A DNA stretch of 42,688 nucleotides from NCBI GenBank assembly GCA_026398615.1, contig JAPLSN010000037.1, forward strand, positions 1 to 42,688. The letters run 5' to 3'. The notes below the pieces were generated by a model. It made no database searches, was not told where the DNA came from, and saw only the letters and a program-made list of their open reading frames with translations. The position numbers were made by a program, and so were the translations under genes. This document shows, piece by piece, positions 6,759-21,101 of the stretch (positions are counted from its first letter, which is position 1; every line of letters begins with the position of its first letter). This DNA is from Spirochaetota bacterium. GTDB lineage: Bacteria > Spirochaetota > Spirochaetia > Treponematales > UBA12059.

Positions 6759-8509
6759 TGAAAAAACCCCGACTCGCTTTCAGGATATTCACGGTAATGC
6801 TCGCAGCGTCGGCCGCGTCGTTGCTCGTGCTCGCTGTATGGTCGGCGCTGGCGATGCGAAGTCTCTACGTCGATTCGACCTTGACTTCACTCGGACAGGT
6901 GGCCTCATCGCTCGCCAACGTCGTCCCGGCATCCGGAGCGGAAGCCTTCTTCTCCAGTGCCGCGGCGGGCACGGGACTCAGGATCACCTTGATAGCCGCC
7001 GACGGCTCGGTGGAAAGCGACTCGGAGGGCAATCCGCTTTCCATGGACAACCATTCGTCCAGGCCGGAAGTCGCCGGAGCGCTGGCAGGCAGGGTCTCGA
7101 CCAGCATGCGCCGGTCGCCGACGCTCGGCCTCGATATGGCCTACGCCGCGGCTCCCGTCACCGTGGACGGCGCCGTCACCGGAGTCCTCAGGGTGGCGAT
7201 GGCCACGACCGAGCTGTCGCGGCGGCTCACGCCGTTCATCATCGCTTCGAGCGCCGTGGCCGCCGCGATGATCGTGGCGATGGCGTTCGCCAGCGCCCGC
7301 CTGAGCGCGAGCGTCAACGGCCCGGTGTCGGCGCTGATGGAAGCCTCCCGCGACTGGTCCTCAGGCAGGCTCGAGCGGCGCTTGCGACGCTTCGACGACC
7401 CGGAGCTGGCGCCGTTGTCCGACACGATGAACGCCATGGCGGCCGAACTGGCGGCCCGCATCGTCGGCATGGAGCGCCAGGGAAGGGAGCTGGGCGCGAT
7501 ACTCGACGCCATGGGCGAGGCGGTACTGAGTACCGATGCCGATCTCGTCATCCGCCTGGCCAATCCTTCCGCGGTGGCACTGCTTGCCGCCGGCGGAGCT
7601 CCTTCTTCCATCGAGGGCCTGACCGTGCTCAAGGCGAGCGGCAATACGGCCCTCGACGCGATGGCGGGGCGTTGCGCATCGGGCAGCGGCCGCGACGAGG
7701 CCGAGGTGACCCTGTATGGCGACGATACGCGGCGGCTCCTCGTCCATGCCGCCCCGCTGCCACTCGAAGGCGGCCGATATGGAGCGCTCCTCGTCCTCAA
7801 CGACATCTCGCGGCTCAAGCGCCTCGAGCGGGTCAAGCAGGACTTCGTCGCCAACGTCTCGCACGAGCTCCGGACTCCGATTACGTTGATCAAGGGTTTT
7901 GCCGAGACCCTCGAGGAAGTGGACGATCCAGCCGAAGCCAGGCGTTTTCTGGCCATCATCAAGCGCCACGCCGACAGGATGGCCTCGATTGTCGATGATC
8001 TCCTGACTCTTGCCAGGCTGGAAGGACCGGAGCGAGGGCTCCTGGAAACCTCCACGGTCAACGCGGCGCAGGTCATCGCGCGGGCGGTGGAGTCGCTTGG
8101 CGACGCGCCGGCGGAAAGGGGCGTGTCGCTGACGACAGCCGTCGAGGCCGGGCTCGAAGCGCAGGCCAACGAAGGGCTGCTCGAGCAGGCCCTCGTCAAC
8201 CTGCTTGACAACGCGGTCAAGTACAGCCCCCGCGGTGCTGCCGTCCGCGCGGAAGCGGCAGCCGATGGAGGTTTTGTACGCTTCGCGGTCCGGGACGAAG
8301 GACCGGGCATCCCGGCGCGCGAGCTTCCGAGGCTCTTCGAGCGGTTCTACCGGGTCGACAAGGCCAGGAGCCGGGAACTCGGCGGCACGGGCCTCGGGCT
8401 GGCCATCGTCAGGCACATAGCTCTGGTTCACGGCGGTGACGCGTCAGTCGAGAGCAGGGAAGGTTCAGGCAGTACGTTCTACCTGCGCGTACCGAGATAT
8501 TGTCAATAG
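6755..8509 (+). CDS. phoR: PhoR-type sensor histidine kinase
   Basis: Membrane histidine kinase partner of the upstream PhoB. 584 residues: membrane helix 1 (about 9-30), an extracytoplasmic region of about 125 residues, helix 2 (about 158-180), HAMP linker, a PAS-like segment with ILDAMGEAVLSTDADLVIRL (about 245-340), HisKA with phospho-acceptor His370 in VSHELRTPITLIKGF, and HATPase_c with N-box NLLDNAVKYSP, DEGPGIP and GGTGLGLAIV. It is the last gene of the phosphate operon; no terminator is obvious before the IS remnant that begins 32 bases later. Confidence 0.92.
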   Translation: MMKKPRLAFRIFTVMLAASAASLLVLAVWSALAMRSLYVDSTLTSLGQVASSLANVVPASGAEAFFSSAAAGTGLRITLIAADGSVESDSEGNPLSMDNHSSRPEVAGALAGRVSTSMRRSPTLGLDMAYAAAPVTVDGAVTGVLRVAMATTELSRRLTPFIIASSAVAAAMIVAMAFASARLSASVNGPVSALMEASRDWSSGRLERRLRRFDDPELAPLSDTMNAMAAELAARIVGMERQGRELGAILDAMGEAVLSTDADLVIRLANPSAVALLAAGGAPSSIEGLTVLKASGNTALDAMAGRCASGSGRDEAEVTLYGDDTRRLLVHAAPLPLEGGRYGALLVLNDISRLKRLERVKQDFVANVSHELRTPITLIKGFAETLEEVDDPAEARRFLAIIKRHADRMASIVDDLLTLARLEGPERGLLETSTVNAAQVIARAVESLGDAPAERGVSLTTAVEAGLEAQANEGLLEQALVNLLDNAVKYSPRGAAVRAEAAADGGFVRFAVRDEGPGIPARELPRLFERFYRVDKARSRELGGTGLGLAIVRHIALVHGGDASVESREGSGSTFYLRVPRYCQ

Positions 8510-8540: not shown

Positions 8541-9538
8541 TCAGGCAGCCACTTCATCGACTTGCACTCCATTTATTAACTTGATTCCCGATTCAACGAG
8601 CGGGATTTGTTTGTAACCATCAAGCCTGCCGCGAAGGTTGATTCGGTGGGATTGGTGGTACGAAGGTGGAGCCAATGTGCCGCGGGGAAGTCATAGAACG
8701 CGAACAGGTCATCCTTACCCTTCACCAGGCATTCCACAGCCTTCGGGTACTTGTCCTTGAATGACGCGACAAAGAGATCGTATGCTTTGAACGCGTCCTC
8801 GCGCGTCGGCGCGAGGTATTGCTCATGCAGCATGCCCTTGGCCTTTCCCTGAAGCACTTTCGGGAGCTTGTCCAGGATGTTCCCGGACTTGTGGAACCAG
8901 CATCGCTGGATACGCGTCTGCGATCACACCTCCGCTACGGTGGTCTGGAATCCCATTGCTCCGTCGCATACCGCAAGTGCCGGTGCATTGTTCAATCCTC
9001 GGGATCGCAGGTCAAGGAGAACCTTTTTCCACGATTGCACGCTTTCCCTGAAGCCATCCGATACGGCAAGCAATTCCTTGTTACCCAAGGAATCCGCACC
9101 CATGACGACGAGCAGGCAGGAGCGTTCATCCTCGAGCCGGGCATTGCAGTACACCCCGTCCGCCCAGACGTAGACGTAGCGTTTTGACGACAGATCGCGT
9201 TTCGACCACTCCTCATACTCCTCGGTCCAGATATCCTTGAGCCGCACGACGGTACTCGCCGACAGCCCCTTGGCCTGTGGCCCCAGGATTGCCTCAAGCG
9301 CTACCGGAAAGTCGTCGGTCAAGATGCCCTTGAGGTAGAGCACGGGCACAAGCGTATCGATGCTCGGTGCCCGCCGCATGAACTTCGGCAGTATCCGACT
9401 CGTGAATCGTTCCTTCCCCAAGGCGTCCAAGGCTCGATCGTCCACGCGCGGCCGCGTGACGGGGATCGGACCCACTCCGGTGAGCACTGTATGCTCGGGC
9501 ATTGCCTCGATTCGAGTCTCGGTGGTAGTCTTGCTCAC
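8541..9538 (-). pseudogene. Degenerate IS256-family (Mutator) transposase
   Basis: Minus-strand transposase remnant. Family blocks include PRVDDRALDALGKERFTSRI, SASTVVRLKDIWTEEYEEW, YVYVWADGVYCNARLEDE and RCWFHKSGNILDKLP, then YPKAVECLVKGKDDLFAFYD and TNPTESTF. It is broken in two ways. An in-frame TGA at 8924-8926 replaces the Phe expected between AEV and SQTR. Near 8620 the sequence jumps from ESTFA to the normal C-terminal tail (RLDGYKQIPLVESG, ending at 8541) in another frame, deleting about 60 codons. The GTG at 9538 has an AAGGAG upstream, but about 80 N-terminal residues of the family are absent. Not functional. Confidence 0.88.
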
Positions 9539-9539
9539 G

Positions 9540-10140
9540 GACGTTCTCCTTCGGGCAAGTTTCGTTTGGCGACAAAACCTTACCGAAAAGAGGCGTCCTT
9601 TTTCTATCCCGTCCACAAGAATCGATCATGTCTCGGCGCTCTAAAACATCAGCTCTCGAACTGCCAAGGTATCGGTTTTCCTGCCGCACCTGTGCTTTCA
9701 GGGGCGAAGACCATCTACCAAGCGGCCTAAGATGCCCAGGCCAAGCGAGCGTCACATTCCAACCTCAAAGCCAAGCCTCGCCGCCGATCCAAGGCCACGA
9801 TCATGGACGATGCGGACGCTCTGGCTGAGAGTCATCACATCCTCATCCTCCTGAACACCCTCTTCGCCAGCGATCCCAACGCGACCCGCAGGGCCGACTA
9901 CAAGTCGGCTGCGACGATAGTCCGAAAGTGCCTACGCTGATCAATTCGACGCATTGCCTTTACATTTTCCTCGTCTCCTCTGGTGTCATCATCATCTTGG
10001 CGCAAGCCTGAGGATGGCTGCATCCGCGCCAAGGTGGAATAATGTCAACAGCCGGGAGGTGCCGCCCACCACTGCTCATAAGCCATCTTTCCGAAGCAGA
10101 TGCCTCCCTCTTGCCCCTATCTGTCTTTTTTCTTATTACT
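9540..10140. other. Gap of remnants upstream of the toxin-antitoxin module
   Basis: No convincing gene. On the plus strand, 9731-9940 is open and ends with ESHHILILLNTLFASDP and a TGA. Its only ATG is at 9803 (45 codons) and an in-frame TAA sits just before it at 9728. It may be the tail of a lost gene; I do not recognise the family. The part from 9540 to 9730 probably belongs to the decayed end of the IS256 element. From 9941 to 10140 I see only pyrimidine-rich sequence leading to the toxin promoter. Confidence 0.4.
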
Positions 10141-10175: not shown

Positions 10176-10538
10176 ATGATTGGATCGCTAGCGACCCAGC
10201 TTTTCCTGGTGCGCCTCATGCCACTTCTCGCGGCCCGGAAGGTTGCATGGAAGCCCCGTAATCGGCGCAAGACAAGGGAATTTATGCTGGAGGAAGGACT
10301 TAGCGAGGATGACGCCTACGAGATCATCTCCAAGCTCCAGCCCGAGCACTACGCCAAGGGACTGGACCCCGATGACGACGGAACGCCTGGGGATGTCATG
10401 GTGTTCTTTCTCCCGTACAAGCGGCAAACTCCGCCGGAGAACGAGATTCTGTTGTACATCAAGTTGAAGATTTGGACCGATATCAGTGGCGATGCCGGTA
10501 TCGTGATGTCTTTCCATGATGAGGGCAATTATGAGTAA
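10176..10538 (+). CDS. MqsR-like toxin of a toxin-antitoxin-chaperone module
   Basis: Probable mRNA-cleaving toxin of the MqsR/RelE-like fold. About 120 residues or fewer. The MqsR-type pattern is visible as GLSEDDAYEIISKLQPEHYAKG in the middle (about residues 40-61) and a C-terminal sheet ILLYIKLKIW...AGIVMSFHDE. Start is uncertain: ATG 10176 has no clear ribosome-binding site, and ATG 10218 is an alternative, though the family usually keeps the residues before it. The stop overlaps the antitoxin start by eight bases. Toxin-first order and the zinc-finger antitoxin next door match mqsRA. Family assignment rests on pattern and context. Confidence 0.72.
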   Translation: MIGSLATQLFLVRLMPLLAARKVAWKPRNRRKTREFMLEEGLSEDDAYEIISKLQPEHYAKGLDPDDDGTPGDVMVFFLPYKRQTPPENEILLYIKLKIWTDISGDAGIVMSFHDEGNYE

Positions 10539-11238
10539 TCGACTGCCATGTTCCCGCTGTGGCACGACCCGTGATGTAGAGGTCGTCGAGCGAGAGGAAC
10601 AGGTAACGATCAAGGGTAAGGAGATCTCCTTCCTCGCCCACTACTCGCGCTGCCTTACCTGCGGAGACGAGTTCGAGGCCCCTGGCCAGCTCGACGCGAA
10701 TCTCGACGCCGCGCGGGAAGTCTACGCCAAGCTCTATGAGGCTCCCTCTCCCGAGGCCTTGGTCGCCCTTCGTGCCCGATATAATGCGAGTCAGAAAGCT
10801 TTTGGCGCGATACTCGGCTTCGGTGAGCTCACTATGAACAGCTACGAGAAAGGCAATATTCCCGATCCGACGAACCGGCTTCTCCTCAGGCTCGCGGCCG
10901 ATCCGCTCATCTTCAAAGCGATGTATGAGATCAATTCCGGGAAGATCGGGACTACTCAACGTCGCAGGATAGAAGAGTCCGAGGGCTACGAGTCAGCGAT
11001 ACATTGGGAGGGACTAGCTGGCCTTTCTGCGCTTCTGGCGCCGCTTCAGCAGGAAAAGATCGAGGCCATCGCTCGGCGCAACGGCAGGACTGTTCCAGTG
11101 CAGATCGCGGCGTACGTCGGAACCGCATCTTTCCAGGACTACTCTCGACTGTACGCCGAAGCACGATGGTCCCATGAAAAGACAACGCCACTTCCCTCCG
11201 CCCCCGCACAACCCATCACCATCCAAGGAGCGGCGTGA
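10531..11238 (+). CDS. MqsA-like antitoxin with extended C-terminus
   Basis: Antitoxin and likely autorepressor. 235 residues from ATG 10531. A YgiT-type zinc finger has CxxC pairs at Cys7/Cys10 and Cys41/Cys44. It is followed by an Xre-like helix-turn-helix with LRARYNASQKAFGAILGFGE and the MqsA-typical MNSYEKGNIPDPTNRLLLRL. Ordinary MqsA ends near residue 131; this one has about 100 more, ending in a segment rich in Tyr, Phe, Pro and Ala. Since a SecB-like chaperone gene follows, the extension could be a chaperone-addiction segment that keeps the antitoxin unstable unless the chaperone binds it. Confidence 0.85.
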   Translation: MSNRLPCSRCGTTRDVEVVEREEQVTIKGKEISFLAHYSRCLTCGDEFEAPGQLDANLDAAREVYAKLYEAPSPEALVALRARYNASQKAFGAILGFGELTMNSYEKGNIPDPTNRLLLRLAADPLIFKAMYEINSGKIGTTQRRRIEESEGYESAIHWEGLAGLSALLAPLQQEKIEAIARRNGRTVPVQIAAYVGTASFQDYSRLYAEARWSHEKTTPLPSAPAQPITIQGAA

Positions 11239-11678
11239 TGCCCGGCGACATCAACGAACGACTTACCCGCTTCCTACATGCCTTGGAATTGCATGACATC
11301 AAGCCGATGCTTCTCCATTCCGAGAACACCGGTCCGATGCCACCTCCAGGCAGCGAACTCAAGCTTGAATGGAAGCAATCCTTTGCCAATGGCGACCCGC
11401 TTGCCACCGCACCTGAAACGAGAATATTCCGGCCCAAGTATAAGCTTTCGGTCAACTTCGAGGAAATACCTATCTTCAAGCAGGTCTCTGTCTTCATCAT
11501 TGGATTCACGGTCACTGATATGGCCGTATTCGAGGAACTCTGGGCCGATGAGGAGCTGCGAAAGGTCTTCATGGAGAAGCAGATCCAGAGGACACTATGG
11601 CCCCTTTTCCGTCAGCACACTCACGACGGGATGAGCCGCCTCGGCATGGTGCCCGTGCCGCTCCCCTGGCTCATGTAG
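11238..11678 (+). CDS. SecB-like chaperone of the toxin-antitoxin-chaperone module
   Basis: 146 residues. The C-terminal part resembles SecB: a strand pair KLSVNFEEIPIFKQVSVFIIGFTV, then FMEKQIQRTLWPLFRQHTHD and the closing SRLGMVPVPLPWLM, equivalent to the SecB PYARE...SRG.FP...L.P block. The ATG at 11238 has AAGGAG at 11225-11230 and overlaps the antitoxin stop by one base. Dedicated SecB-like chaperones occur in toxin-antitoxin-chaperone modules (for example Mycobacterium Rv1957), where they fold and protect the antitoxin. The housekeeping role in protein export is less likely given the operon. Confidence 0.8.
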   Translation: MPGDINERLTRFLHALELHDIKPMLLHSENTGPMPPPGSELKLEWKQSFANGDPLATAPETRIFRPKYKLSVNFEEIPIFKQVSVFIIGFTVTDMAVFEELWADEELRKVFMEKQIQRTLWPLFRQHTHDGMSRLGMVPVPLPWLM

Positions 11679-11719
11679 AGATTGTCATGCTTCGAATGGA
11701 ATTTGTAAGGAGTGCCCAT

Positions 11720-11911
11720 ATGCCCACCCTAACCTGGACGGGTGAAGGCCAGATACCAAGCGATTTCTCTGCGCTCTTCTCTGAAGGGCCTGTTATCGAT
11801 GAGCCAGCGGAAATGTTTGATTTTAGATATGCTTGCGGCGAGCGTTCAGGCGCGTATACCGCATTTACACGCAGGATGGAGGCGATAGAATGTCGATCAA
11901 AGGAGCTCTGA
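11720..11911 (+). CDS. Small hypothetical ORF (63 residues)
   Basis: ATG 11720 is preceded by AAGGAG at 11707-11712 with seven-base spacing, a better ribosome-binding site than many genes here have. The product begins MPTLTWTGEGQIPSDF and is acidic, with no signal peptide or membrane helix. I do not recognise the family. It lies between the chaperone gene and the methyltransferase operon and could be a remnant of the 5' end of a lost gene. Confidence 0.4.
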   Translation: MPTLTWTGEGQIPSDFSALFSEGPVIDEPAEMFDFRYACGERSGAYTAFTRRMEAIECRSKEL

Positions 11912-11966
11912 CTCCTAATTCACCAAGGAATCAGGGTTCAAATGGGGAATCGCAGGTAATACGCCC

Positions 11967-12638
11967 ATGAGCCTGGTAAAATCCAAACAACGCGTCGCCG
12001 ACCACGGGGAGGTATTCACGCCCCCGTGGATGGTCGAGGCCATGCTCGACCTCGTCAAGGACGAGACCGAGCGCATCGACTCACGCTTCCTGGAGCCAGC
12101 GTGCGGGAGCGGGAACTTCCTCGTCCCAATTCTGCAGCGAAAACTCGCCGCCGTCGAACTCAAGTTCGGCAAGTCCGAGTTCGAAAAACGGCACTACGCG
12201 CTGTTCGCGCTGATGTGCATCTATGGCATCGAGCTACTGCCGGACAACATCGCCGAGTGCCGCGCTAACATGCTGGAGATCCTCGCCTACTACCTGGCTC
12301 TGGATGGGTCGGACGACCTGTATCGAGCCGCCTTCCAGGTGCTGTCGCAGAACCTCGTTCACGGGGACGCCCTAAGTATGCACAGCAGCGATGGCCAGCC
12401 GATCACCTTCGCCGAGTGGGGCTACCTCGGCAAGGGCAAGTTCCAGCGGCGGGACTTTCGCTTCGACAGCCTCACCCAATCATCGGCCTACAGCGCCGAG
12501 GGGTCGCTCTTCGCCCACCTTGGCAAACACGAGATTTTTACGCCGGCTAAAACCTACCCGCCGATGACGGTGGGTGAATTGGCCGCCGTGCCGGGAATCG
12601 CTGAAATTTCTCGTTCCAACCGGAGGGCTGCGCCATGA
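11967..12638 (+). CDS. Small DNA N6-adenine methyltransferase subunit lacking the NPPY motif
   Basis: 223-residue protein with the cofactor-binding half of an N6-adenine methyltransferase: GEVFTPPWMVEAMLD (motif X, about residues 12-26) and LEPACGSGNFL (motif I, about 45-55), followed by YGIELLPDNIAECRANM. No NPPY/DPPY catalytic motif follows. The C-terminal part has GYLGKGKFQRRDFRFD and GSLFAHLGKHEIFTP. It opens the seven-gene operon; its stop overlaps the next start (ATGA). A second methyltransferase with NPPY is encoded at 13977, so the pair may act as a split enzyme. A stand-alone regulatory subunit is the alternative. Confidence 0.8.
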   Translation: MSLVKSKQRVADHGEVFTPPWMVEAMLDLVKDETERIDSRFLEPACGSGNFLVPILQRKLAAVELKFGKSEFEKRHYALFALMCIYGIELLPDNIAECRANMLEILAYYLALDGSDDLYRAAFQVLSQNLVHGDALSMHSSDGQPITFAEWGYLGKGKFQRRDFRFDSLTQSSAYSAEGSLFAHLGKHEIFTPAKTYPPMTVGELAAVPGIAEISRSNRRAAP

Positions 12639-13450
12639 GCAAGGAGAAAAAACTCCGAATCCGCAACGGCACGGCGGAGTTCCTCATCTTCACCCGCCAA
12701 GCCGGCGACCCGGGCATCGAGGTGCGGGTGGCGGAGGAGACTGTGTGGCTGACGCAGAAGTTGATGGCGGCGTTGTTCGAGGTCACCGTTCCAACCATCA
12801 ACGAGCATCTGGCCAATCTTTTGGGACAGGGCGAAATCGCGGCGGCGGCAACTATTCGGAATTTCCGAACAGTTCAAAGGGAGGGCAGCCGGGACGTTTC
12901 CCGCAACGTGGAATTCTACAACCTCGATGCCATCATCGCGGTCGGTTTCCGGGTGAACTCGGACCGCGCCACCCAATTTCGCCGGTGGGCCACGGGTGTC
13001 CTGCGCGACTTCGCCATCCACAGCCACACCGCAGCAGAGTTGATCGTGGAGCGCGCCGACAGCGCGAAAGAGCGAATGGGGCTGACGACGTGGAAGAACG
13101 CGCCGCACGGGAAAATCCTCAAGCCGGATGTCGTCGTCGCGAAAGACTACCTGACGGAAAAGGAACTCAAGGCACTCGACCGCATCGTGACCATGTATCT
13201 GGACTACGCCGAGGATCAAGCGGAGCGGGGCATCCCGATGACGATGCAGGATTGGGCCACGAAGCTGAACGCATTCCTCCAGTTCAATGAGCGCGACCTG
13301 CTGGATCATCCCGGCAAGGTCAGCGCCGAAGTGGCGAAGGCCTTTGCCGAAAGTGAATTTGAAAAATACCGCGTCGTGCAGGACCGCCTGTTCGAGTCCG
13401 ACTTCGACCGGGCCATCAAGAAGCTGCCGAAGAAAGGGAACAAGCCATGA
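12635..13450 (+). CDS. RhuM family protein
   Basis: 271 residues matching the RhuM family, first named in a Salmonella pathogenicity island and common beside restriction systems; the molecular function is unknown. Family blocks are EETVWLTQKLMAALFEVTVP, HLANLLGQGEI, NVEFYNLDAIIAVGFRVNS and ATQFRRWATGVLRDF, then a helical C-terminus with LTEKELKALDRIVTMYLDYAE. The N-terminal half resembles a KilA-N/Bro-like DNA-binding fold. Some homologues are about 330 residues, so the C-terminus may be short. Start and stop each overlap a neighbour by four bases, so it is expressed with the methyltransferases. Confidence 0.88.
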   Translation: MSKEKKLRIRNGTAEFLIFTRQAGDPGIEVRVAEETVWLTQKLMAALFEVTVPTINEHLANLLGQGEIAAAATIRNFRTVQREGSRDVSRNVEFYNLDAIIAVGFRVNSDRATQFRRWATGVLRDFAIHSHTAAELIVERADSAKERMGLTTWKNAPHGKILKPDVVVAKDYLTEKELKALDRIVTMYLDYAEDQAERGIPMTMQDWATKLNAFLQFNERDLLDHPGKVSAEVAKAFAESEFEKYRVVQDRLFESDFDRAIKKLPKKGNKP

Positions 13451-13980
13451 ACAGCTCACGCGGAGGCGCGGAGAACGCGGAGGAAGAGACGGTTCACGCG
13501 AAGGCGCGAGGATGCGAAGGTTCACGCGAAGGCGCGAAGACGCGAAGTGAAATCGAAACAGTTGTCCAAATAGTAATAGATACCGCGCTAGAACTACATC
13601 GAGGCCTGGGGCCAGGGCTTCTGGAATCCGTTTATGAGGCGATTCTCGCAAGGATGCTGGAACAACGAGGGCTTCGAGTCGAGCGGCAAAAAGCGGTCCC
13701 CGTCCGATTTCGGGATATCGAACTTGACGAGTGTTTCCGACTGGATCTGTTTGTCGATGATCAACTCATCGTGGAACTGAAATCTGTCGAAAACATCCAC
13801 CCCGTTCATCCGAAGCAGGTCCTGACGTATCTGCGGTTGATGGATTTATCCCTGGGCCTGTTGATCAATTTCGGGGCACCGCTTCTCAAAGACGGCTTGC
13901 GTCGGGTGGTCAACCATCACACCAACTTCGCGACTTCGCGACTTCGCGTGCACCAATATCCCGCGGAGGATCCCAAGTGA
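13447..13980 (+). CDS. GxxExxY family protein on a repeat-flanked cassette
   Basis: 177 residues. The core (about residues 37-160) has the naming motif GLLESVYEAIL (G-x2-E-x2-Y) and a PD-(D/E)XK-like arrangement RLDLFVDDQLIVELKSV, so a nuclease-like fold is likely, though activity is not established for the family. The first 35 residues are simply the translation of three tandem GC-rich repeats (13455-13547), and the last 18 are the translation of the inverted copy (13926-13950). Start (ATGA) and stop (GTGA) still overlap the neighbours by four bases. It separates rhuM from the second methyltransferase gene, so it looks like a later insertion kept in frame. Confidence 0.85.
   Translation: MNSSRGGAENAEEETVHAKARGCEGSREGAKTRSEIETVVQIVIDTALELHRGLGPGLLESVYEAILARMLEQRGLRVERQKAVPVRFRDIELDECFRLDLFVDDQLIVELKSVENIHPVHPKQVLTYLRLMDLSLGLLINFGAPLLKDGLRRVVNHHTNFATSRLRVHQYPAEDPK
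13455..13547 (+). repeat. Three tandem CACGCGAAGGCGCGAAG-type repeats
   Basis: Copies of a roughly 28-36-base unit start at about 13455, 13492 and 13520. The last (25 bases at 13523-13547) is the best match to the inverted copy at 13926-13950. They lie inside the 5' end of the GxxExxY reading frame. Confidence 0.85.
13926..13950 (-). repeat. Inverted copy of the GxxExxY-flanking repeat
   Basis: The 25 bases are the reverse complement of 13523-13547 at 23 of 25 positions. Together the two copies bracket the GxxExxY core like terminal inverted repeats. Confidence 0.85.
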
Positions 13981-15584
13981 CAGGACAAGCCCAATTTTCC
14001 CTGCGCGGTCGCAATCCCGATGTATTGACCTGCATCGCTAACCTCTCCAACGACGAGGTTTTCACACCCCCCGCGTTCGCGGGCAGGATGCTGGATACCC
14101 TCGCCCAGGCGTGGGCGACCGACCACGAGGGCGCGAAGATCTGGGCGGACAGTTCAGTGAGGTTCCTGGACCCGTGCACCAAGTCGGGCGTGTTCCTGCG
14201 CGAGATCACCAGCCGCCTGACCAAGGGCCTGGCGGACGAGATTCCGGACCTTGAGGATCGTGTCGACCACATCCTGACCAGGCAGGTCTTCGGTATCGGC
14301 ATCACACACCTGACAAGCCTACTGGCACGCCGCAGCGTGTACTGCTCAAAGCACGCCAATGGCGAGCATTCCATAGCGAAATCACTCACCAGTGATCACG
14401 GTAACATCTGGTTCGAACGCACCGAGCACCAGTGGGCAGATGGAAAGTGCGCGTACTGCGGCGCGAGCCAGAAGACGATGGACCGTGGCGAAGGGCTCGA
14501 AACCCACGCCTATGCGTTCATCCACGCCGACGACATCAAGACCCGCATGGCCGATTTGTTTGGAGGCGATATGCAGTTCGATGTAATTATCGGGAACCCG
14601 CCGTACCAGTTGGACGATGGTGGCTACGGCACGAGTGCCGCGCCGATCTACCAGTTATTCGTCGAGAATGCCATTCGCCTTGATCCGCGCTACGCCGTAT
14701 TCGTAACCCCCTCACGGTGGATGGCTGGGGGCAAAGGGCTCGACAAGTATCGGGAGCGGATGCTCTCAGACAAGCATCTGCGGAACATCGTAGACTACCC
14801 GAAGCTTTACGAGGGTTTTCCGGGTGTTAAAATACGCGGTGGCATCTCCTATTTCCTATGGGATCGCGACCACAACGGCCCGTGTGAGGTACAGACGATT
14901 TGGGACGGGCAGCCGACGGGACCAGCAGTTGCGCGCCAGCTTGATTCCTATGATATCCTTATTCGCCGAAACGAAGCCGTACCGATATTGGATAAGGTAA
15001 GAGCGAAGGGTGAGCCCACGCTCGTTGATCGCGTGTCAAGCAGAAAGCCATTCGGTCTACCTACCAATTTCAGAGGAAAGCCCTCAGCGGCGGGAGTAAC
15101 CAAGCCGATTCGTCTTTACGAAAACCAGCGTATCGGCTGGATCAGCCGCAAGGATATCCCGATCAACGAAGCTTTGATTGACGAGTGGAAAGTCCTGATG
15201 ACAAGGGTTCAGGGCACGAGTGCTGCAATCGAGACCAAGTTCCTCAGTAAGCCTATCATTGCCGAGCCAGGTACCGCATGTACTGAGACCTACCTTGTTG
15301 CCGGGCACTTCGACAACGAGGCCGATGCCTCGTACTACGCGAAGTACCTCAGTACTCGATTCGTTCGATTCTTGGTTTCTCTTCGCAAGCAAACCCAAGA
15401 CGCTGCTCGCGGAGTCTATGGTTTTGTCCCAGACTTACCGCTGAACCAAGAGTGGACCGATGCCAAGCTCTACAAGCGATATGGACTGACCAAGAAAGAG
15501 ATCGCCTTCATCGAGTCCCAAGTCGCCGAGCACAAGATCGAACTGTTTGATGAAGACAGCAGCCCTGAAGGTGACGATGAGTAA
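13977..15584 (+). CDS. Eco57I-like N6-adenine DNA methyltransferase
   Basis: 535 residues, GTG start overlapping the GxxExxY stop. It has NDEVFTPPAFAGRMLD (motif X, about 23-38), FLDPCTKSGVFLREI (motif I variant, near 62, with Thr-Lys where most enzymes have Gly), NPPYQ (catalytic motif IV, residues 207-211) and VFVTPSRWMAGGKGLDKYRE. The segment FPGVKIRGGISYFLWDR is typical of the Eco57I-type family. A zinc-ribbon-like CAYCGA near residue 159 is an unusual inserted element. The C-terminal third is probably the target-recognition domain. With the helicase-nuclease at 17844 it would form a restriction-modification system. Confidence 0.87.
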   Translation: MTGQAQFSLRGRNPDVLTCIANLSNDEVFTPPAFAGRMLDTLAQAWATDHEGAKIWADSSVRFLDPCTKSGVFLREITSRLTKGLADEIPDLEDRVDHILTRQVFGIGITHLTSLLARRSVYCSKHANGEHSIAKSLTSDHGNIWFERTEHQWADGKCAYCGASQKTMDRGEGLETHAYAFIHADDIKTRMADLFGGDMQFDVIIGNPPYQLDDGGYGTSAAPIYQLFVENAIRLDPRYAVFVTPSRWMAGGKGLDKYRERMLSDKHLRNIVDYPKLYEGFPGVKIRGGISYFLWDRDHNGPCEVQTIWDGQPTGPAVARQLDSYDILIRRNEAVPILDKVRAKGEPTLVDRVSSRKPFGLPTNFRGKPSAAGVTKPIRLYENQRIGWISRKDIPINEALIDEWKVLMTRVQGTSAAIETKFLSKPIIAEPGTACTETYLVAGHFDNEADASYYAKYLSTRFVRFLVSLRKQTQDAARGVYGFVPDLPLNQEWTDAKLYKRYGLTKKEIAFIESQVAEHKIELFDEDSSPEGDDE

Positions 15585-16800
15585 CCCGAGGAATAACGTC
15601 GTCGCCGGGCATTCGGACGCCCTCTTTGGACGCGTAGTGTCTATTCTTGAACGGGCGCTGGGTAGTGTCGTCAGGGCCGTGAATACCAATATGGTGCTGG
15701 CCTACTGGTTGATCGGGCGCGAGATTGTCCAGGAATGGCAAGGCGGCGAGGAACGTGCGGAGTACGGCAAGAAGCTTGTCGAAGAGCTGCCCACATGCCT
15801 GACGGTACGGTATGGGAAAGGGTTTTCGACCACAACTCTCCAGTATTTTCGAAAATTCTATTTGGCTTACCCGGCTCGGTGTACCGGAATTCCACGCCCG
15901 TCGGGCGTGGAATCTGTAGACCCCCTTATGGAACAGGAGATATCACGCCCGATAGGCGCAGAATGGACCGAGGCAGGGAATCCCTCCCCAGTTGGAAGAG
16001 AAATGGCCGCCACCCCACTTGCGTACCCAGCGGACGGCGATTTGTCACAAGGTTTCTCGCCGCAACTTTCTTGGTCGCACTACCGCGCCCTGATGCGAGT
16101 GGACAATACCGAGGCCCGCGATTTCTACGAGCGGGAAGCCAGGGAGTGCGGCTGGTCGAAGGCGCAACTAGAAAGGCAAATCCACAGTTTCTACTACGAC
16201 CGGATTGTCTCCAATCGCGGCGAGAAGGGGCTCCTGTCCGAGGACAGGGATCGTCTTCCCGGCGAAAAAGTCCAGCCAGCCGATCTGCTCAAGTCACCTA
16301 TGGTGCTGGAATTCCTGGGACTTCCCGATTCTCCTGAACTGCATGAAAGCAGGCTCGAACAGGCGATTATCGACAACCTGCAAAACTTCCTGCTGGAACT
16401 CGGTAAGGGATTCTCTTTTGTCGCTCGTCAGAAGCGTATACGATTCGGAGATGACGATTTCTATATTGATCTCGTTTTCTACAACTACGTCCTGAAGTGC
16501 TTCCTCTTGCTTGATCTAAAAATGGGGAAGTTGACTCATGCAGATATCGGGCAGATGGACGGCTATGTCAGGCTCTTCGAAGACCGTTTCAAGATCCCCG
16601 GCGACAATCCCACGATTGGCTTGTTGCTCTGCTCGGATAAAAGCGAGGCGGTCGCCAAATACTCGATCCTGAGCGAGAACAAGCAAATTTTTGCATCGAA
16701 ATACCTGCCGAACCTACCGACGGAAGAGCAGCTCCGACTGGAGATCGAGAAGGAACGGCATCTCATCGAGTCCGCCCTGGAAGACCGCACCCGTGTGTAA
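15577..16800 (+). CDS. DUF1016/YhcG-type PD-(D/E)XK nuclease
   Basis: 407 residues; ATG 15577 overlaps the methyltransferase stop by eight bases (ATGAGTAA). The N-terminal domain (about 1-100) has NTNMVLAYWLIGREIVQEWQ and KGFSTTTLQYFRKFY, typical of DUF1016_N. The C-terminal nuclease domain has KGFSFVARQKRI, DDFYIDLVFYN and LLLDLKMGKL with the D...D-x-K spacing of PD-(D/E)XK enzymes, then GQMDGYVR. Between them (about residues 105-165) is a Pro/Gly-rich insert that contains a perfect DNA palindrome. Proteins of this family often sit next to restriction genes; its exact role here is unknown. Confidence 0.87.
   Translation: MSNPRNNVVAGHSDALFGRVVSILERALGSVVRAVNTNMVLAYWLIGREIVQEWQGGEERAEYGKKLVEELPTCLTVRYGKGFSTTTLQYFRKFYLAYPARCTGIPRPSGVESVDPLMEQEISRPIGAEWTEAGNPSPVGREMAATPLAYPADGDLSQGFSPQLSWSHYRALMRVDNTEARDFYEREARECGWSKAQLERQIHSFYYDRIVSNRGEKGLLSEDRDRLPGEKVQPADLLKSPMVLEFLGLPDSPELHESRLEQAIIDNLQNFLLELGKGFSFVARQKRIRFGDDDFYIDLVFYNYVLKCFLLLDLKMGKLTHADIGQMDGYVRLFEDRFKIPGDNPTIGLLLCSDKSEAVAKYSILSENKQIFASKYLPNLPTEEQLRLEIEKERHLIESALEDRTRV
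15889..15913. repeat. Perfect 12-bp-arm palindrome inside the DUF1016 gene
   Basis: ATTCCACGCCCG (15889-15900) and its exact reverse complement (15902-15913) are separated by one base. It codes for part of a linker between the two domains. A decayed relative (CACGCCCGATAGGCG) lies near 15944-15958. Confidence 0.8.
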
Positions 16801-16836
16801 CGAACTTCGGCGACCAGATGCCCGAGGTGCAATCCT

Positions 16837-17843
16837 ATGACCGCGCTTGAGCAGTTCTATTCGGAAGACCCAAGCTGGCACGAAAAGATCGGCGATATCC
16901 ACGCCCTGCTCGAGCGCGTCAAGATCAGCGAGGAGCAGTCCGGCGACCTGCTGCGCCTGCGCACTCTCAATCGCATCCTTACGATCCACGCATCCACCGC
17001 CATAGAAGGGAACCGGCTCAGCCTTGCCCAGGTCACCGATGTCATCAACGGTAAACCCGTTTTGGGACCGCTCAAGGACATCAAAGAGGTGCAGAACGCC
17101 TGGCACGCATACGACGAATTGGCCGGCTATGAGCCCTGGGCAGTCGGCGATTTATTGAAGGCCCACGCTCACCTGACCGACACCCTCATCGGGGAGTCGG
17201 GCCGGTTCCGCACGGTCGGCGTCGCCGTCGTATGCGACGATGGCGCGGTGATGCACCGAGGCTCCCCGGCGGAAGAGGTCCCCGCCCTCGTGGAGCGCCT
17301 CCTCCGGTGGGGGAAGACCGCCGAGGCGCACCCCCTCATCAAGAGTTCCGCGGTCCACTTCATGCTGGAATACATCCATCCCTTCCGCGACGGCAACGGC
17401 AGGATCGGGCGCTTATGGCAGACGCTGATTCTTTCCAGATGGAATCCCCTGTTCGCCTGGATGCCGGTCGAAACCCTGGTCCACGACAACCAGGCGTTGT
17501 ACTACAAGGCGCTACAGGATTCTCATTCAGGTAGTCTGGATTGCCGACCCTTTATAAGATTTATGCTCGATGCCATAGGGAATTCGCTGTATAAGTACAT
17601 AGATATCGCGACAGAAACAGCGGCCGATGTACCTGTAAATGTCGGTGTAAATGTCGGTGTAAATGAAAAGATCCTAGATTTCCTGAAACGAGAGCCGGGA
17701 TTGTCGGCCAATGAATTAGCCACGTTGTTGAACAAGACTACCCGTACCCTAGAACGCCATCTCAAGGCCCTCCGAGAACAGGGACGGCTGAAACGCGTCG
17801 GCTCAGACAAGGCCGGCCACTGGGAAATCATGGAGAGGCCGCG

Positions 17844-17847
<4 letters not shown>
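16837..17847 (+). CDS. Fic family protein with C-terminal winged helix
   Basis: 336 residues. Fic proteins usually transfer AMP to target proteins. The catalytic loop HPFRDGNGRIGR begins at His181 and is complete. The auto-inhibitory motif STAIEGN (S53 to N59) precedes the core, marking a class II Fic whose activity is normally switched off in cis. A VNVGVNVGVN repeat (12-base DNA unit, 17635-17664) links to a C-terminal winged helix, ANELATLLNKTTRTLERHLK, so it may also bind DNA. It starts 36 bases after the DUF1016 gene and its stop overlaps the helicase start (ATGA). Confidence 0.92.
17635..17664 (+). repeat. 12-base tandem repeat in the fic gene
   Basis: GTAAATGTCGGT occurs twice in a row (17635-17658), followed by a third GTAAAT half. 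The unit length is a multiple of three, so copy-number change would alter linker length but not frame. Confidence 0.85.
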
Positions 17848-20384
<2,537 letters not shown>

Positions 20385-20405
20385 AAGAGCTACAGGAGGT
20401 GCGGT

Positions 20406-20497
20406 TGAACCGCCCCGGGATTGCCGGAGACTGAATTCTTTGAGAGGATACAGTCATGGGCAAAGAAAACAGGTTTTCACCAGAGGTACGGGACCTC
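20406..20497 (+). mobile_element. Left-end fragment of an IS3-family element
   Basis: TGAACCGCCCCGGGATTGCC starting at 20406 resembles an IS3-type left terminal repeat. It is followed by a spacer, GAGAGGA and ATG 20456, then MGKENRFSPEVR, the usual N-terminus of OrfA. Similarity stops near 20497 after about 14 codons. Because the right tip at 496 is unlike the complement of this terminus, it belongs to a different IS from the one at the window start. Confidence 0.75.
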
Positions 20498-20511
20498 GGG
20501 GCCGCACGCGC

Positions 20512-20591
20512 CCGTTCGACTCCCCCGGAAAAATAAAAGATCCGCAGGAAGCGGATCTCTTATTTTTGGAGGTGGGGGGAGTCGACTTCCG
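20512..20591. repeat. Partial copy of the tmRNA 3' end with its own terminator hairpin
   Basis: On the minus strand, GTCGACTCCCCCCACCTCCA (20572-20591 region) repeats the T-arm and acceptor strand of the tmRNA almost exactly. It is followed by a hairpin, AGATCCGC...GCGGATCT with A/T-rich flanks (about 20528-20570), that looks like a terminator in either direction. On the plus strand GTTCGACTCCCCC at about 20514-20526 mirrors it. The rest of a tRNA-like domain is absent. Confidence 0.65.
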
Positions 20592-20682
20592 GTCGCGCGC
20601 TCAGCGCGCTTCCTTCAGCCCGCCTGCGGCGCTCTCGGCGCGTCCATGCGCCTCGCGCTCGCTAGCTCGCGACGCGCCTCCG
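20592..20682. other. GC-rich palindromic spacer
   Basis: Short nested dyads (GCGCGCTCAGCGCGC-like, and CGCGCTCGCTAGCTCGCG-like) fill this stretch. No gene or RNA gene is recognisable. It separates two tmRNA-end-like units. Confidence 0.5.
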
Positions 20683-20708
20683 GTTCGACTCCCCCCATCT
20701 CCTTATCA

Positions 20709-20746
20709 AAAAACCAACCCCGCCAGAAGGCGGGGTTGGTTTTTTT
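20709..20746 (-). terminator. Rho-independent terminator of tmRNA
   Basis: AACCAACCCCGCC and GGCGGGGTTGGTT form a 13-bp stem around TTCT, ending in a T-run on the minus strand directly after the tmRNA 3' end. The complementary A/T-run on the other side could let it work on plus-strand transcripts too. Confidence 0.9.
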
Positions 20747-21101
20747 GGAGGTGGGGGGAGTTGAACCCCCGTCCCCGAATGCTGACCGTAGACATCTACA
20801 GGTTTATCCGTCCTTTTGAATTGTCGGATCCGGTGTAGCGAGACGGCGCGCGTTCCGGACCGTATCCCGATTCATGTTCCCTTGCCGTTCGGGCCCGGCT
20901 TCGGGTGAGCCCCGGTCGGTGTCGGACGCAGCGATCGCTCGGGGCAGCGCAACCGCGAATCCGTCGTTCAACGTCGCTTACGCGGCGAGAGCGAGAGTGC
21001 CGTTGTTGTTGGCACTTGAAGGTTTGCCGAATGTTAGGAGATCGGCGTCTCCACCTGCAACCCACGACCGAGACCATACGGATCGAAACCGGAACACCCC
21101 C
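20746..21101 (-). ncRNA. ssrA: tmRNA (SsrA)
   Basis: Rescues stalled ribosomes by trans-translation. The 5' strand GGGGGUG (21101-21095) pairs with CACCUCC (20753-20747) as a seven-pair acceptor stem. UUCCGGUUUCGAUCC follows at the 5' end, and the T-arm GGACGGGGGUUCAACUCCCCC sits at the 3' end. The discriminator A is 20746 and CCA is not encoded. The tag reading frame (21013-20978) gives ANNNGTLALAA then TAA, ending in the expected hydrophobic-Ala-Ala. Length is about 356 nt. The overlapping open frames in this region are artefacts. Confidence 0.95.

Follow-up and report, generated by a model that had tools for sequence, protein, structure and literature searches.

Hairpin repeats with host-matched arms behind tRNA and tmRNA genes of Spirochaetota

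RtT is known from a single tRNA operon, in E. coli and its relatives. In E. coli K-12 tyrT (rttR, RF00391; read from NC_000913), three tandem 178-bp repeats each combine an inverted T-arm copy (GGGGAAGGAT), a hairpin core and a direct tRNA-Tyr 3' end (AATCC...CCA), with the direct 3'-end copies at +155, +333 and +511 (locus L230). Integron attC sites, as described in PMC2727003, conserve structure rather than sequence and form imperfect hairpins with pairing arms. The units described here, present behind the tmRNA gene of a Spirochaetota bacterium and behind tRNA genes across its phylum, share the plan of RtT, and their conserved structure, imperfect hairpin and pairing arms are features in common with attC.

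The tmRNA array

The window, the whole stretch of 42,688 nucleotides that was analysed, makes up all of contig C5 in a draft genome of 3.38 Mb. The nearest mnmA to its own, with 65% identity, comes from 'Spirochaetes bacterium RA.bin110', which places this genome in Spirochaetota. Going away from the tmRNA, the order is 3' end, terminator, inverted 3' end, core of ~100 nt, direct 3' end, second terminator and a cut-off second unit (Table 1). The type-B ends of two other loci (L018 and L030) suggest that the outermost segment is the remnant of a second core. The covariance-model match of unit 1 spans 20576-20694 and scores 107.8 bits with model R1 and 103.1 bits with model R2. Beyond the second unit the array runs into DNA beside the last defence-island ORF (17844-20384).

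Table 1. Features of the tmRNA 3' region and the adjoining array (window coordinates)
Feature	Position	Strand	Remarks
tmRNA gene	20746-21101	-	Tag ANNNGTLALAA; ARAGORN; Rfam RF00023, 135.5 bits
tmRNA 3' end	20747-20767	-	T-loop to last base
Terminator-like hairpin 1	20708-20745	bidirectional	17 bp; between tmRNA and unit; A-tract and T-tract; inverted repeat
Right arm of unit 1	20682-20702	+	Inverted tmRNA 3'-end copy (GGTTCGACTCCCCCCATCTCC); matches own tmRNA in inverted sense
Core of unit 1	20586-20681		GC-rich, structured
Left arm of unit 1	20568-20585	-	Direct tmRNA 3'-end copy; pairs with 20685-20702
Terminator-like hairpin 2	20529-20567		Sequence unrelated to hairpin 1; inverted repeat
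Inverted 3'-end copy of truncated second unit	20514-20526	+	GTTCGACTCCCCC
Putative core remnant of second unit	20490-20513		~24 nt left; type-B end ...GCGCCCGTTCGACT; cut off towards defence island

The motif GGAGGTGGGGGGAGT occurs exactly on the plus strand at 20568-20582 and 20747-20761, 179 bases apart, and with one mismatch on the minus strand at 20688-20702. The opposed TTCGACTCCCCC lies at 20515-20526 and 20684-20695, 169 bases apart, and the two 17-bp hairpins, perfect or near-perfect, each join a copy of GGAGGTGGGGGGAGT. A first-pass annotation of this DNA had described copies of the tmRNA 3' end recurring 170 bases away, each coupled to a hairpin and an opposed TTCGACTCCCCC; the recurrence and the coupling are borne out, and the spacing is corrected to 179. 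The count of three 15-mer matches (up to 3 mismatches) in the whole window is by itself unremarkable, with at least three also found in 19 of 100 shuffles. The excess over chance lies in how the parts pair and in their register: the direct repeat is 50 nt long and the inverted arms 18-34 nt. The single-stranded DNA fold of 20568-20702 reaches z = -6.0 against shuffles. Chance in a GC-rich region is rejected as the source of the repeats by the family and structure tests.

Elsewhere in the genome, TTCGACTCCCCC has only three further copies; the two that were read lie far from tRNA genes in what looks like coding sequence, and these copies are rejected as family members. The repeats of the window carry TTCGACT where the tmRNA carries TTCAACT, so the tmRNA probably changed after the arrival of the unit. 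The sequence GGAGGTGCGGTTGAACCG at 20396-20413, between island and array, looks like a decayed tmRNA 3' end, a likeness that could be chance. The defence genes at 10176-20384 are MqsA-like, a methylase fragment, RhuM (PDC-S05), PDDEXK_3, an Eco57I methylase, YhcG (PDC-S02), Fic (SoFic) and a T5orf172-helicase. Two of these, the methylase (13977-15584) and the helicase protein (17844-20384), correspond to separate segments of a single type IIG model, PDLC03626; YhcG and Fic are encoded between the two. A piece of an rve-type transposase lies at the contig end (192-605, plus strand).

Distribution of the family and fit of its arms

Searching the genome of the window and 22 other genomes of its family recovers the core many times outside tmRNA, nearly always behind a tRNA gene, in a single orientation and with arms equal to the 3' end of that tRNA. 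Covariance model R1, built from 21 units, finds units in 44 of 296 Spirochaetota genomes and 22 of 139 genera, finished chromosomes among them. Of 135 distinct units in the retrieved loci, 116 follow a tRNA or tmRNA gene in the expected strand orientation, mostly 20-70 nt behind the gene, with the remainder further along in arrays. The host genes comprise 26 kinds of tRNA/tmRNA, tRNA-Tyr not among them. The genome of the window holds 10 clear units against 42 tRNAs and one tmRNA, and eight of the ten lie directly (20-70 nt) behind one of these 43 genes.

The arms follow the host gene closely. The direct arm differs from its own tRNA by a median of 0 of 18 positions and from other tRNAs by 8 of 18. 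Where the last 15 bases of a given tRNA vary between species, the direct arm resembles its own genome's version more closely in 274 comparisons and less closely in 9; for the inverted arm the figures are 238 and 25. The family and its tRNA-matching arms are firmly established. It is apparently undescribed so far; no known Rfam family matches the units at the gathering score, and no prior description was found in the open literature.

Several units depart from the common arrangement. In the genome of the window, a solo unit with Leu-GAG arms stands near the end of contig C43 with no tRNA within 3 kb (L005 2832-2951), and a second solo unit with Glu-type arms, also without a tRNA, is found at C6:37727-37851 (L260 around 7727-7900). 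The terminator of the latter leads into a Glu tRNA tail that is broken at TAGCCCCTAGGG, with phage tail genes (collar, tape measure) following; this unit was likely displaced by a prophage in tRNA-Glu, and true tRNA integration may have taken place at this site, elsewhere in the genome than the tmRNA. Four loci (L030, L135, L154 and L013) carry a further repeat, GGCGGGGGNNNNCCCCCGC...GCTGCGAGTCTCGCGC, within the core or replacing part of it, as mosaic or nested repeats. In four others (L016, L020, L023 and L121) the array ends in an inverted 3'-end copy and a small hairpin, CAGTTCGCGC...GCGCGAAC, perhaps a minimal terminal unit. In an Omnitrophota MAG (L232 1350-1750), units in tandem have arms resembling tRNA (GAGTCCTCAGCGGGGTACC) and share identical terminators, and no tRNA lies within 2.1 kb. 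The search that reached this MAG covered 40 genomes, of which 37 were without units; the matches were RA.bin110, a Sphaerochaeta and that MAG.

Candidate mobilisers and carriers were compared with the distribution of units. An integron integrase above the cut-off is present in 36 of 296 genomes, and units occur in 21 of these 36 against 23 of the 260 others (odds ratio 14, p 4e-11). Inside the order the link vanishes (17/25 vs 20/34 genomes, p 0.59), so shared ancestry may explain the phylum-wide association. Y1 transposase is likewise not significantly associated with units in the order (15/20 vs 22/39 genomes, p 0.26), and two genomes with units, G004 and G214, have no Y1 transposase match. 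Neither enzyme is supported as mobiliser within the order. Phage and plasmid collections contained no units, viral contigs gave no match to any of four core patterns, and all three are rejected as carriers. The genome of the window encodes a full-length integron integrase at a contig edge (C33:84-1025, 471 bits).

Inheritance and insertion

Cores group by tRNA across genomes, both within family f1 (mean 0.652 vs 0.617, p 5e-4) and across families (p 0.002), and a Ser-CGA unit in a conserved Ser-Ser-Arg-Ser tRNA cluster is common to three families; many units are therefore old and were inherited. The best match of a core belongs to the same tRNA in another genome in 38 cases, to another tRNA in the same genome in 19 and to neither in 59; nor do the cores behind different tRNAs resemble one another more closely inside one genome than across the genomes of a family. 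Both results argue that movement between tRNAs is rare and that most units are inherited. Copies nevertheless do pass from one tRNA to another now and then, as individual cases of similar cores with differing arms show. One genome has Leu-CAA and Met-CAT units with 87% core identity, each with the arms of its own tRNA; Arg-TCG and Trp-CCA units are alike in the same manner, and by reading, a Sphaerochaeta MAG has Arg-TCT and Arg-TCG units with near-identical cores and separate tails.

In 26 of 65 first units, compared with 2 of 921 control pairs, the terminator of the distal 3' end matches the one that follows the tRNA and shares its orientation, indicating that the duplicated stretch extends from the T-loop through the terminator. 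One pair of genomes of the same genus, with the same downstream gene, provides an empty and a filled site. The empty site (G014) consists of the tmRNA, a single terminator and the downstream gene. At the filled site (G019), a tmRNA with a different T-arm, 3' end and terminator is followed by the core and then by a 3' end and terminator of the G014 type. The distal copy is 91% identical to the 3' end and terminator of G014 and the proximal copy 69%, and the two tmRNAs share 98.4% identity once the last 36 bases are set aside. In this pair the insert has replaced the tmRNA 3' end and displaced the original; it is the one clean empty/filled comparison, and gene conversion from a relative would leave the same pattern. 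The 5' strand of the T-stem has changed as well in G019, which points to later compensation or to recombination with the tmRNA of a relative, the single pair being compatible with both.

Nature of the units and comparison with known systems

The units are probably small non-coding insertion elements specialised on tRNA and tmRNA 3' ends, with insertion as their likely origin. A unit comprises an inverted host 3' end (T-loop to last base), a ~100-nt core of several hairpins and a direct copy, with terminator hairpins on both sides. Units would arise by insertion at the T-arm, and the insert would bring a replacement 3' end and terminator that leave the gene intact, as with much larger tRNA-integrating elements. 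Recombination between the direct 3'-end repeats would let arrays grow and shrink, and spread could proceed through a recombinase acting in trans or through ordinary homologous recombination. Since some sites have kept their units for a long time, a benefit to the host is possible.

The evolution of the core bears on the form in which a unit acts. An alignment by MAFFT only, with no structure model, has both-sided changes in 21 of 32 predicted pairs. A model-fitted alignment of 139 units, which by its construction leans towards structure, has both-sided changes in 32 of 32 pairs, with 92.6% of cells paired against 65% in the control; pairing falls to 47-54% when partners are shifted by one column. 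One-sided to both-sided changes stand at 7:117 in the MAFFT-only alignment and at 54:1093 in the model-fitted one, compared with 54:108 in the tmRNA of the same genomes, for which MAFFT and RNAalifold were applied just as for the MAFFT-only alignment of the units. One-sided changes in RNA helices pass through G-U. The near-absence of G-U intermediates suggests one of three things: pairing at the DNA level, a need for both strands to fold, or repair of each palindrome from its own arms; because the helices change in this way, a DNA hairpin or cruciform, not RNA, is probably the acting form.

This pattern, unusual for RNA, weighs against a second reading, in which the units are vertically inherited small-RNA elements, transcribed with or behind the tRNA and bound, for example, by a CsrA-type protein through GGA loops, their arms kept by gene conversion. 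Such a reading, possible though doubtful, agrees with the grouping of cores by tRNA across genomes and with the GGA loops: on the tRNA strand, 124 of 139 units have GGA in the hairpin 2 loop and 83 of 139 have it in the hairpin 1 loop. A five-unit array (L211 1314-2049) with GGA in both hairpin loops gives CsrB matches of 15.7-17.4 bits (E 0.45-1.5), weakly in its favour yet far under the gathering score of 71, and the similar plan of RtT in E. coli is annotated as an sRNA transcribed from tyrT. Against it, a terminator usually separates the tRNA from the unit, and the empty/filled pair and the exchanged arms point to insertion.

A more specific version of mobility is also conceivable, albeit rather unlikely: the unit could be a target-adapting mobile DNA hairpin, a folded single strand whose end helix is a double-stranded copy of the tRNA 3' end, joined to any tRNA gene by a recombinase according to structure, as integrons do with attC, and taking up the tail of each new host. 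RtT of E. coli would then be a stranded relative.

It is improbable that the units are by-products of DNA repair, produced by tandem duplication and template switching at tRNA-terminator palindromes, with the core no more than a palindrome that fold-back synthesis keeps perfect. Template-switch correction of palindromes would be expected to leave paired changes that lack G-U intermediates, and the 3' end and terminator are duplicated together. The terminators, however, are repeated in direct and not inverted orientation, and fold-back synthesis is accordingly rejected as the origin of the second terminator. The core consensus (CTCTCGGCGC, GGA loops, CTCGC-GCTCG) is common to many genera, a conservation not expected of repair products free of selection, and the exchange of arms between tRNAs is left unexplained.

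The first-pass annotation had read the repeats as an attachment-site scar of the defence island, left by repeated integration or excision at the tmRNA 3' end. Although the array breaks off ~100 bases after the last island ORF and tRNA-type integration seems to occur elsewhere in this genome, beside the phage tail genes of C6, a scar of this kind is very improbable, given the same tmRNA array in island-free relatives, the family behind 26 tRNA kinds, the intact tmRNA-proximal unit between gene and island, and the lack of both a far-side copy and a tyrosine integrase among the island proteins scanned. Repeated insertion at the tmRNA 3' end is supported by the G014/G019 pair; a link to the island is not supported. 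Relatives without the island had been expected to show a single tmRNA end, but arrays follow the tmRNA in RA.bin110/G002, G016 and G019 with other neighbours: in RA.bin110 (L040) an acetyltransferase-like gene, TsaD and TsaE, and in G019 (L265) a his operon in the same contig stretch. A matching att copy expected on the far side of the island is absent from the window and, as exact TTCGACTCCCCC in tRNA context, from the rest of the genome; in place of an integrase gene, the island ORFs scanned yielded only a Mutator-family transposase fragment, bordering the defence genes on their left (8924-9616, minus strand). The annotation had itself held that the same arrangement without the island, or a repeat family at unrelated sites, would speak against a scar; both the arrangement and a family are found, the sites of the latter being tRNA 3' ends rather than unrelated.

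If the units are insertion elements, very small inserts use tRNA 3' ends in the manner of integrating elements. The missing G-U intermediates make the units a natural case for separating DNA hairpins from RNA structures. For annotation, partial tRNA 3' ends beside islands are not necessarily attachment scars. RtT has hitherto been an oddity of a single E. coli tRNA operon; with the same plan now behind 26 tRNA/tmRNA kinds across a phylum, the nature and origin of RtT-like repeats become testable by comparison.

Common descent of RtT and the spirochaete units is suggested rather than proved, the statistical link being weak and convergence possible. On 2.5 kb of K-12 with filters off, the RtT copies rank first for both R1 and R2, in the same orientation; R1 gives 18.8 bits (E 7e-4) and R2 19.9 bits (E 2e-4), the E values applying to the 2.5 kb searched. 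In the reverse direction, RF00391 has no match in the genome of the window at E <= 0.001, and 11 unit loci likewise give none with the cut-off relaxed to E 10. Unlike RtT, the spirochaete units serve many tRNA/tmRNA kinds in many genera, with arms fitted to each and terminators between units.

Islands and prophages that integrate into tRNA genes through tyrosine recombinase att sites share with the units the target from T-loop to 3' end, the replacement 3' end and the displacement of the old one. The units differ from them in being ~150-200 bp, non-coding and structured, in holding an inverted 3'-end copy inside, in presenting one conserved core behind many tRNAs and in encoding no integrase. 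The arm boxes of attC read GTTRRRY and RYYYAAC; the unit arms GTTCGAC and GTTCAAG are tRNA T-loop sequence, depart from this box consensus and accompany no cassette gene. REP/RAYT repeats and MITEs are, like the units, short, non-coding, dispersed, palindromic and gene-less. Unlike either, the units sit at tRNA 3' ends, show no significant association with Y1 (RAYT) transposases and have ends that vary with the tRNA and match the host gene, in place of the fixed terminal repeats of MITEs.
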